Assembly: GCF_040546585.1 (NCBI RefSeq)
Contig: NZ_JBEPOC010000001.1
Coordinates: 2,046,001 to 2,110,000 of the forward strand
Length of the DNA: 64,000 bases
Direction: 5' to 3'
Source: Marmoricola sp. OAE513
Lineage (GTDB): Bacteria > Actinomycetota > Actinomycetes > Propionibacteriales > Nocardioidaceae
Made by a program: the position numbers and the translations under genes
In this document: positions 59,014 to 62,067 of the stretch, piece by piece
Layout: every line of letters starts with the position of its first letter
How positions within the stretch are numbered: the first letter of the stretch is position 1
The notes under the pieces: model-generated
What the model was told of the DNA's origin: nothing
What the model saw: the letters and a program-made list of their open reading frames with translations, nothing else
Database searches by the model: none

Positions 59014-62000
59014 TCAGAGGTCGAAGAGCGATCCAGCCTCGTTGATGTTCACATCGGTCTTCGGCTGGTTGGCCTCGCCCGAGCTCTTCGGCTTCTCCGG
59101 CTCGGGCGCCTTCTCGGCCTCGGGCTCGGCAGCAGTCGCGGGCTCGGCAGCCTCGGGCTCCGCAGCGGCCTCCGGCTCGGCAGCCTCGGGCTCCGCGGCC
59201 GGTGCTTCCTCGGCAACAGGGGCAGCTGGAGCGGCCGGTGCAGCCGGCTCAGCGGCCGGGATGTCGAAGAGCGAGCCGGCGTTGAGGTCGACCTTGGGTG
59301 CCTCAGCCTTCGGAGCCTCAGCTGCCGGCGCAGGCGCCTCAGCCTTGGGCTCCTCGGCAGCTGCTGCGGGAGCGGCCGCCTCCGCCTTCTTCTCCGCGAC
59401 GATGTCGAACAGCGAGCCGCCACCACCGAGGTCGGCCTCCGGTGCCGGAGCAGCCTCGGCCTTCGGTTCCTCGGCGGGCGCAGCCTTCGGAGCCTCAGCA
59501 GCGGGAGCCGCCTCGGTCGGAGCCACGTCGAACAGCGAGCCGCCACCGAGGTCGGCCTTTGCCGCCGGCTTCTCCTCCGCGGGCTTGGCCGGCTCGGGCG
59601 CCGGCGTGTCGAAGAGCGACCCGCCGCCGAGGTCGGCCTTGGCTGCCGGCGTCTCAGCAGGCTTGTCGGCAGCCGGAGCCGGGGTGTCGAAGAGTGAACC
59701 GCCGGATGCAGCCGGCTTCGACTCGGCAGGCGCAGCCGGAGCGGCATCGAACAGCGAACCGCCGCCTGCCGGAGCAGCCGGAGCCTTCGCCTCGACCTCG
59801 GCCGCCGTCTCCGGCGTCGCCTCGGCCGGAGATGCCGGGGTGGTGACCTTCGCCTTCGGCTTGGCCTCCTTGACCTTCTTGCCCTCGCCCTTGACCGAGG
59901 CCAGCAGCAGCTGGGCGACGTCGAGGACCTCGACCTCCTCGCCGGCGCGGCCGGCGTCCTGCTCGCTGGTCAGGCCGTCCTCGAGCATGGTGCGGCAGAA
60001 CGGGCAGCCGACGGCGATCTGGTCGGCGCCGGTCCCGACGGCTTCGACGGTCCGGTTCACGTTGATCCGCTCGCCGATCGTCTCCTCCATCCACATCCGG
60101 GCGCCACCGGCACCGCAGCAGAAGGACCGCTCGGAGTTCCGCGGCATCTCCACGACCTCGGAGCCGGGGATGACCTGGAGCAGCTCGCGCGGCGGCGAGT
60201 AGACCTGGTTGTGGCGACCCAGGAAGCAGGGGTCGTGGTAGGTGATCTTGCGGGTCGGGCCGGGGGCCGCGACCGGGGTCAGCTTCTTCTCGCGCACCAG
60301 GCGGTTGAGCAGCTGGGTGTGGTGGACGACCTCGAGCTCGATACCGAACTGCTTGTACTCGTTCTTGAGCGTGTTGAAGCAGTGCGCACAGGTCGAGACG
60401 ACCTTCTTGACCTTGTGCTCGTTGAAGGTCTCGATGTTCTGCTGGGCGAGCGCCTGGAAGACGAACTCGTTACCGGCGCGGCGTGCGGAGTCACCCGTGC
60501 AGGTCTCGCCGTTGCCGAGGACGGCGAACGAGACGCCGGCCATGTCGAGCAGCTCGGCGACCGCGCGGGTGGTCTTCTTCGCGCGGTCCTCGTAGGCACC
60601 GGCGCAGCCGACCCAGAACAGCCAGTCAACCTCGGTCAGGTCCTGGACGTCCTCGCCGACGACCTTGACGTCGAAGTCGAGACCCTGGGCCCATTCCATC
60701 CGGGCGTTCGGGTTCATGTTCCAGGGGTTGCCCTTGTTCTCCAGACCCTTGAAAAGTCCGTTGAGCTCAGCCGGGAAGTTCGCCTCGACGAGTACCTGGT
60801 AGCGACGCATGTCGACGATGTGGTCGACGTGCTCGATGTCGACCGGGCACTGGTTGACGCACGCGCCGCAGTTGGTGCAGGACCACAGAACGTCGTTGTC
60901 GATGATCGCGCCGCCCTCGGGGTGCCACGCGTACTCACCCTCGGAGACGCCGACGAGCGGGCGGTCGACCTCGTACTCGGTCAGCTGCTCGGGGGTCATG
61001 GCCTCGCGGGTCGCCTCGTCAGCCATCAGGTACGGGGCCTTCGCGAACGCGTGGTCGCGCGAGTTCATGATCAGCATCTTCGGAGAGAGCGGCTTCTCGG
61101 TGTTCCACGCCGGGCACTGGGACTGGCAGCGGCCGCACTCGGTGCAGCTGGCCATGTCGAGCAGACCCTTCCACGAGAAGTCCTCGATGGAACCGATGCC
61201 GAGGACGGTGTCCTCGTCCATGTCCTCGACGTCCTCGAGGGTGATCGGCTTGCCGTGGGAGATCATCTCCTTGACGGCACCGAGCGCGACGGGGCTGTCG
61301 GGCCGCTTGAACATGATGTTGATCGGCGCGACGAAGATGTGCAGGTGCTTGGAGTTCAGCACGATGATGAGGAACACCAGCATGATGCCGATGTGCAGCA
61401 GCAGGCCGACGCCCTCGAGGATCTCCAGGCCGGTGTCCCCGTGGTGCAGGCCGATCGAGTTGATCACGTCGCCGATGGCGTGCGAGAAGAAGGCCTCGTT
61501 GCCGTAGGGCAGGTTGCCGGCGGCGGCTGCGGCCCCGCGGAACAGGAACATCGTCCAGATGACGTTGAAGATCATGATGAGGACGACCCAGGCGCCACCG
61601 GTGTGCGAACCCTTGAACCGGGACTTGCGGCCGAGCTTCGCGGGCTGGTTCTTGTACCGGATGAGCGAGAACGTCAGCAGACCGACGAGGCAGAGGACAC
61701 CGATCATGTCCTGGCCGAAGCCGAGGATCCACCAGTCGCCGACGAGCGGGATCTTCCACTTCTCGTCGGTCGAGAGCAGGATCCCGTAGGCCTCGACGTA
61801 CACGGTGCCGAGGATCAGGAACGCGTACATGACGAACGAGTGCGCGATGCCCGGGATCGACCACTTGAGCAGCTTCTTCTGCCCGAGGACCTCGACCAGC
61901 TGGTTCTTCAGGGCGGCGCTGACGCGGCCGGTGACACCGGCGATGCGGTCGGGCGCCGGCTGGCCGCCGGTGATGAGCCGGACCAGGAACAGCACCCGCT

Positions 62001-62067
62001 TCAGCGCGAACGGCAAGATCGCGATGTTGAGGATCAGGCCCAGGATGAGCGTGAGCTTGGTGTCCAA
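59014..62067 (-). CDS. etfD: EtfD-type membrane Fe-S oxidoreductase with seven-fold GSLFD tail
   Basis: 1017 residues. Residues 1-~270: membrane helices like those of NarI-type subunits with haem-type His (GIAHSFVMYAF, LLLHIGIMLVF). Two 4Fe-4S motifs: CTECGRCQSQCP (from 308) and CTNCGACVNQCP (from ~397). Two CCG domains (STCAHCFNTL...HHTQLLNRL, HDPCFLGRHN, SFCCGAGGARMW, GCPFCRTML). Passes electrons from ETF to the quinone pool; mycobacterial EtfD (Rv0338c) is the model. From ~725 an Ala/Pro/Glu-rich tail holds seven GSLFD motifs. TTG start at 62067 after GGAG. Confidence 0.9.
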   Translation of the reverse strand: MDTKLTLILGLILNIAILPFALKRVLFLVRLITGGQPAPDRIAGVTGRVSAALKNQLVEVLGQKKLLKWSIPGIAHSFVMYAFLILGTVYVEAYGILLSTDEKWKIPLVGDWWILGFGQDMIGVLCLVGLLTFSLIRYKNQPAKLGRKSRFKGSHTGGAWVVLIMIFNVIWTMFLFRGAAAAAGNLPYGNEAFFSHAIGDVINSIGLHHGDTGLEILEGVGLLLHIGIMLVFLIIVLNSKHLHIFVAPINIMFKRPDSPVALGAVKEMISHGKPITLEDVEDMDEDTVLGIGSIEDFSWKGLLDMASCTECGRCQSQCPAWNTEKPLSPKMLIMNSRDHAFAKAPYLMADEATREAMTPEQLTEYEVDRPLVGVSEGEYAWHPEGGAIIDNDVLWSCTNCGACVNQCPVDIEHVDHIVDMRRYQVLVEANFPAELNGLFKGLENKGNPWNMNPNARMEWAQGLDFDVKVVGEDVQDLTEVDWLFWVGCAGAYEDRAKKTTRAVAELLDMAGVSFAVLGNGETCTGDSARRAGNEFVFQALAQQNIETFNEHKVKKVVSTCAHCFNTLKNEYKQFGIELEVVHHTQLLNRLVREKKLTPVAAPGPTRKITYHDPCFLGRHNQVYSPPRELLQVIPGSEVVEMPRNSERSFCCGAGGARMWMEETIGERINVNRTVEAVGTGADQIAVGCPFCRTMLEDGLTSEQDAGRAGEEVEVLDVAQLLLASVKGEGKKVKEAKPKAKVTTPASPAEATPETAAEVEAKAPAAPAGGGSLFDAAPAAPAESKPAASGGSLFDTPAPAADKPAETPAAKADLGGGSLFDTPAPEPAKPAEEKPAAKADLGGGSLFDVAPTEAAPAAEAPKAAPAEEPKAEAAPAPEADLGGGGSLFDIVAEKKAEAAAPAAAAEEPKAEAPAPAAEAPKAEAPKVDLNAGSLFDIPAAEPAAPAAPAAPVAEEAPAAEPEAAEPEAAAEPEAAEPATAAEPEAEKAPEPEKPKSSGEANQPKTDVNINEAGSLFDL

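Follow-up and report, generated by a model that had tools for sequence, protein, structure and literature searches.

Why should a membrane iron-sulfur oxidoreductase carry, behind its folded core, a long disordered tail in which one five-residue motif, GSLFD, returns seven times? This question is raised by the etfD gene of Marmoricola sp. OAE513, located in the stretch of DNA analyzed here (the window, 64,000 nucleotides). A previous reading of the sequence alone had suggested that the tail docks a partner, for instance ETF or acyl-CoA dehydrogenases. In the reading preferred here, to which a probability of about 0.58 is given, the GSLFD repeats would be multivalent docking sites for ETF that act via EtfB, a binding step that we infer from co-variation. 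The features of the locus are the following:

59014..62067, minus strand, etfD, 1017 aa with a TTG start as listed; membrane Fe-S oxidoreductase of the Rv0338c type
59863..62067, minus strand, folded core of EtfD, residues 1–735; N-terminal transmembrane helices, two 4Fe-4S sites and two CCG domains
59014..59889, minus strand, disordered tail, about residues 727–1017 plus the stop codon; Ala/Pro/Glu/Lys-rich (AlphaFold2 pLDDT, composition and shuffles)
59746..59760, minus strand, GSLFD copy 1, protein position 770
59686..59700, minus strand, GSLFD copy 2, protein position 790
59608..59622, minus strand, GSLFD copy 3, protein position 816
59527..59541, minus strand, GSLFD copy 4, protein position 843
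59404..59418, minus strand, GSLFD copy 5, protein position 884
59263..59277, minus strand, GSLFD copy 6, protein position 931
59020..59034, minus strand, GSLFD copy 7, C-terminal (GSLFDL, stop), protein position 1012
59527..59704, minus strand, 81-bp tandem duplication, 2.2 copies with 80% matches, spanning motif copies 2–4

The window EtfD matched the Pfam domains CCG (2.6e-36) and Fer4_9, the 4Fe-4S dicluster (2.2e-11), and it contains the two CCG domains plus a 4Fe-4S dicluster domain by which the Rv0338c type is recognized. Its core is homologous to that of the mycobacterial proteins (M. tuberculosis Rv0338c; M. smegmatis MSMEG_0690, PDB 9ojn): residues 7–360 and 383–985 aligned with 9ojn at an E-value of 2.3e-265 and, as in that structure, membrane helices at the N terminus are fused to the Fe-S part, according to the alignment and to the long N-terminal helices of the AlphaFold2 model. 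The electron path from ETF through EtfD to menaquinone is taken from the work on mycobacterial EtfD (PMC13083937, PMC8593149), and the window EtfD probably takes up electrons from ETF and passes them on to menaquinone. The genome (3.89 Mb) encodes one EtfD, one EtfA and one EtfB; the positions of etfBA (0.598 Mb) and etfD (2.105 Mb) show that the two loci are unlinked.

The tail of about 290 residues is indeed rich in Ala, Pro, Glu and Lys (90, 46, 41 and 25 of 292 residues, respectively), and the AlphaFold2 pLDDT values of about 30–40 agree with disorder, in a model built on 28 orthologues and of moderate overall quality (mean pLDDT 59). The values were about 33 throughout the tail and 60–64 in the last ~17 residues, and no increase was observed at the six motif copies other than the C-terminal one. 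The sequence-only reading had located six copies exactly and the fourth one nucleotide off (59528–59542 instead of 59527–59541), and it had correctly placed the last copy at the very C-terminus of the protein, where GSLFDL is followed by the stop codon. Its description of the motifs as evenly spaced did not hold, since the spacings range from 20 to 81 residues in the window tail and from 7 to 285 (median 45) in the 51 family tails described below.

The presence of seven GSLFD copies is far beyond chance. In 20,000 shuffles of the window tail SLFD appeared 0.0006 times on average and once at most, and all seven Phe residues of the tail lie inside the motif. Additionally, the DNA pattern GGNTCNCTNTTYGAY was detected eight times in the whole genome (3.89 Mb), seven of them in the EtfD tail, and the reversed-pattern control gave no matches genome-wide; the eighth match falls shortly before the probable initiating Met of an unrelated ORF, apparently outside a gene. 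The codons vary among the copies (GGT/GGG/GGC/GGA, TCG/TCA and CTG/CTC), which indicates conservation at the protein level despite the 81-bp tandem duplication. Other tandem repeats, of 15–33 bp and coding for Pro, Glu and Ala, were observed at 59117–59199, in the linker that separates motif copies 6 and 7, the longest of the tail.

The analysis of 51 distinct closed EtfD tails of Nocardioidaceae, with lengths of 169–660 residues, extended these observations to the family. SLFD was found 345 times, with 2–11 copies per tail and a peak at seven, and the linkers were unrelated, so that the copy number varies while SLFD is kept, as had been anticipated. The motif accounts for 345 of the 393 Phe residues of these tails, the next commonest context being SMFD. 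GGSLFD is the consensus, with L, I, T or V as the next residue, and 49 of the 51 tails terminate in SLFD and a single aliphatic residue (SLFD[L/I]). All of the same-genus tails recovered carried the motif, with 2–11 copies, unrelated linkers and, mostly, a terminal GSLFDL; the named carriers are species of Nocardioides and Marmoricola. The DNA sliding-clamp binding motif is QL[SD]LF, with Gln two residues ahead of the S/D in (S/D)LF. At this position, -2 relative to the S of SLFD, Gly (70%), Ser (14%) and Ala (9%) were the leading residues and Gln was not among them, which rules out GSLFD as a sliding-clamp motif.

No SLFD array was seen beyond Nocardioidaceae in the class-wide sample examined. 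Actinomadura, Streptosporangium and others have short EtfD tails lacking SLFD. EtfD and ETF occur with no tail of this kind in many Nocardioidaceae and in most of the Actinobacteria sampled, and the motif is therefore dispensable for the basic reaction. Long SLFD-free tails are also present in the family (e.g., G041, G068, and G075). In the 13 congeners searched, the GSLFD array was confined to EtfD; the other matches were single unrelated genes, antisense frames, the N termini of fumarylacetoacetases (in two of the genomes) and the rest of an EtfD split at the edge of a contig. A docking code common to many proteins was consequently rejected for exact GSLFD.

Several minor observations were also made. 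The fumarylacetoacetase-like protein of two congeners (L132 and L136), which starts with ...GAAGSLFDLDNLP(Y/F)GVFS, is the sole other recurrent occurrence of GSLFD. A second motif, SL[RKHF][DE][IV]KA (e.g., SLRDIKAK), is present as a single copy at 75–85% of the tail in nine of the 51 SLFD tails (L012, L013, L017, L023, L048, L053, and L121–L123). Three relatives free of the SLFD array (L050, L052, and L058) end in ...DRLF or ...DTLF, possibly a forerunner with a single C-terminal motif.

To locate a partner, EtfA, EtfB and RecA were compared between 33 genomes of the family with SLFD tails (SLFD-positive) and 33 without them (SLFD-negative). EtfB Q154 was found in 33/33 of the former and 0/33 of the latter, V150 and G172 each in 30/33 and 0/33, and E152 in 33/33 and 6/33. 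Of the five EtfB columns that differ most, four are packed into a span of 23 residues (a probability of about 0.009 if columns are drawn at random). No column of EtfA, which is longer than EtfB and belongs to the same operon, differed by at least 0.9 in the same 33 versus 33 genomes, and none of RecA reached 0.8 in a 28-genome subset where EtfB has two perfect columns; beyond these three proteins, a different one might show stronger co-variation. In its predicted structure EtfB has a fold that matches ETF beta chains, with residues 150–154, 157–163 and 168–174 forming a three-strand meander in which 150, 152 and 154 alternate along one strand. Most of the SLFD-negative relatives have acids at 150, 154 and 172, and the SLFD-positive genomes mostly V, Q and G instead; this loss of negative charge from the hairpin suits an acidic-hydrophobic ligand. 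E152, acidic and yet fixed in the SLFD-positive EtfB, breaks the simple charge rule. Among the partners that had been proposed for the tail, ETF is the one favored by the co-variation, which singles out one EtfB hairpin; the electron-transfer cluster that had been envisaged at the membrane would be a possible outcome of such docking.

Two genomes deserve mention with regard to EtfB. G067 has two copies (L266 and L305), 78 and 77% identical to that of the window organism, from duplication or binning. G007, a congener with 99% completeness, has an SLFD-type EtfB (L261) and an EtfD match limited to a weak CCG, owing to an assembly gap or to loss.

On a tree of ETF (EtfA plus EtfB, with the hairpin left out), the SLFD-positive genomes fit one origin and provide one independent pair, so that no significance can be drawn from this tree alone, and the main contrast between tails and EtfB may be a single event in ETF history. 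Changes of the candidate partner surface alongside the motif were also seen in G011, which is nested within the SLFD-positive group and whose motifs have decayed to DDLFGDD, DDLFADD, DSLFDDDD and a terminal DDLWDD. With 35 SLFD-type genomes as reference, the EtfB of this one genome, inspected after the hairpin had already been singled out, departs at just three of 109 invariant columns (E152G, Q154R and G195L) and its EtfA at none of 142. G011 is the only SLFD-type genome that deviates at EtfB 152 or 154; position 195 belongs to the recognition-loop helix (human 197). The charge of its hairpin segment is 0, compared with a mean of -1.7, and a more acidic motif is paired there with a less acidic hairpin. 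Weaker support comes from G078, one of four genomes of its genus in the sample. It is placed among the SLFD-negative relatives, where other differences from the SLFD-positive group are to be expected, and has SLFG/SLFD repeats, in a tail cut by the contig end, together with EtfB K150 and S154 where its neighbors have acids.

The tree of the EtfD core requires at least five changes of tail state, and EtfB Q154 follows the tail in each of the five independent pairs (p = 0.0625, which is the minimum attainable with this number of pairs). Core and tail are, on this evidence, uncoupled, which argues against the core as the receptor; it does not prove selection, since the conserved core could be swapped by recombination while the resident tail stays in place. 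EtfD cores appear to have been exchanged among lineages, with the tails staying: G061 has a core near that of the window EtfD and a tail of the type of G070 and G045. This other long tail (L040, L057, and L117 in G061, G070, and G045) shares a predicted-helical stretch, ESILEGDEVDISEFKAKLKAEL..., and a terminal GSL, and the EtfD cores that bear it belong to two divergent types.

In the mechanism proposed, the tail of EtfD would be a disordered cytoplasmic tether and the GSLFD copies its short linear docking motifs, each of them a weak, reversible EtfB-binding peptide. The candidate docking site is the EtfB beta hairpin (about residues 144–172 in the window organism), which adjoins the recognition loop used toward dehydrogenases. 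With 2–11 weak sites per tail, avidity would allow ETF to be caught near the membrane and its local concentration to stay high, and the length of the A/P/E-rich linkers would bring docked ETF within reach of the CCG clusters of the same EtfD or of one next to it. ETF would be passed in this way to the CCG iron-sulfur center of EtfD, which would reduce menaquinone. As a speculation, docking might also affect the opening of ETF through the hairpin, whose second strand carries D163. This residue is the counterpart of human beta-E165 in an ungapped alignment, where the E165A mutant chain differs exactly there, and beta-E165 has been reported to stabilize the closed, non-productive ETF conformation (PMC5827430). 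Q154 was also considered as this counterpart, and was dropped because the alignment places E165 at D163. We infer, then, physical binding, multivalency, a local-concentration effect and an influence on the open/closed balance of ETF; if this is right, a respiratory enzyme holds its own soluble electron carrier on a tether.

Other explanations were considered. It seems unlikely that the motifs recruit an unrelated partner (for localisation, a respiratory supercomplex, a protease adaptor or another protein), with the hairpin differences of EtfB being only lineage markers. The main association between tail and EtfB could be a single historical event, as this explanation would have it; however, EtfA and RecA share the same history without such columns, the changes of G011 are restricted to the hairpin and the recognition-loop helix, and the absence of Gln excludes the sliding clamp.

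Two further explanations are rather improbable. In the first, the docked partners would be acyl-CoA dehydrogenases or other dehydrogenases that donate electrons, and the tail would assemble a metabolon from the enzymes that precede ETF. Many dehydrogenases are served by EtfD through ETF (PMC8593149, PMC13083937), which makes such multivalency sensible, and the EtfB changes could track dehydrogenase changes, since the co-varying position 195 lies in a helix that contacts dehydrogenases in human ETF (PMC4148887); nevertheless, the co-varying sites center on 150–172, outside the recognition loop itself. In the second, the motifs would act within or between EtfD molecules, by folding of the tail back on the Fe-S core or by self-association into membrane clusters. 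The higher pLDDT of the last ~17 residues could reflect a weak contact with the core, although C-terminal conservation alone could raise it, and the confidence at the remaining six motifs is not raised. Apart from this weak signal, no docking of the tail back on EtfD was shown by AlphaFold2. Moreover, the tail type follows that of EtfB, and not the core, in the five pairs described above, and the mixed composition of G061 argues in the same direction. Finally, it is hardly credible that the tail is a functionless, passive product of GC-rich repeat expansion: the 81-bp duplication, the short repeats and the long SLFD-free tails of the family would agree with it, but the motifs are retained amid linker turnover, with synonymous codon differences among copies and an almost constant C-terminal copy.

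The proposed docking of ETF by the GSLFD repeats can be compared with known systems. Mycobacterial EtfD, a proposed tuberculosis drug target, has at its C terminus a long disordered tail, variable in length and interspersed with conserved repeats, against which ETF was placed in an AlphaFold3 model (PMC13083937). EtfD co-immunoprecipitates with EtfB in mycobacteria, where ETF is the electron donor (PMC8593149); in the mycobacterial work ETF was absent from the EtfD co-purification, a structure of ETF:EtfD is lacking and the role of the tail is unproven (PMC13083937). Both tails are disordered with spaced repeats, but the mycobacterial repeat is basic, of the VKGLGIAAGAKRPGAKK type, and that of the window is the acidic-hydrophobic GGSLFD; the basic KGLGI...GAKRPGAKK repeat is not present in the window tail, where GSLFD is found instead. 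The EtfB hairpin of mycobacteria, of the LRKVTVEGG type, is also unlike that of the window organism.

Like short linear motif arrays on disordered tethers in general, the window tail combines a conserved short core with variable number and spacing and unrelated linkers, with the difference that (G)GSLFD has no known receptor. In human ETF bound to acyl-CoA dehydrogenase (1t9g, 2a1t), an EtfB surface likewise serves for partner docking, and its recognition loop aligns with residues 187–198 of the EtfB of the window organism, beta-E165 falling on the co-varying hairpin. The human loop inserts into the pocket of a folded enzyme, whereas here a peptide of the oxidoreductase would bind to the neighboring EtfB hairpin.

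EtfD and repeat-bearing disordered EtfD tails were already known in mycobacteria. The new elements are the Nocardioidaceae GSLFD motif family, its copy-number variation, its C-terminal conservation and a specific candidate site on EtfB. To our knowledge, the co-variation of motif and EtfB has not been reported previously, and nothing relevant to (G)GSLFD in EtfD was found in the literature searched, in which the coverage of subscription papers is thin. The candidate contact is marked by evolution on both sides, as a five-residue ligand in 2–11 copies and a few EtfB residues that change alongside it, and the question of the tail is reduced to a small peptide-binding problem with natural controls (the ETF of G011 and the DDLFADD tail).

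More tentatively, actinobacterial EtfD tails might possibly be lineage-specific ETF capture arrays. Each lineage would have a code of its own, made of the docking peptide and one EtfB hairpin that evolve together (GSLFD in Nocardioides and its relatives, KGLGI/GAKRPGAKK in mycobacteria). Several ETFs would then be retained simultaneously at the membrane, and docking would alter the closed/open balance of ETF through the hairpin of the beta-E165 counterpart. If true, a respiratory enzyme would carry a buffered supply of its soluble electron carrier.

At least two lineages have repeat-bearing EtfD tails, each with its own motif. The EtfD tails of family f4 resemble the mycobacterial 9ojn tail and carry arrays of a different, basic repeat. 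In these tails (L092–L095, L100, L101, L104, L107, and L108), the spaced repeats VKGLGIAAGAKRPGAKK, KGLGMKGAAKAPGAK and KAKGFGMAAGKKRPG were observed, usually with one copy at or near the C terminus.
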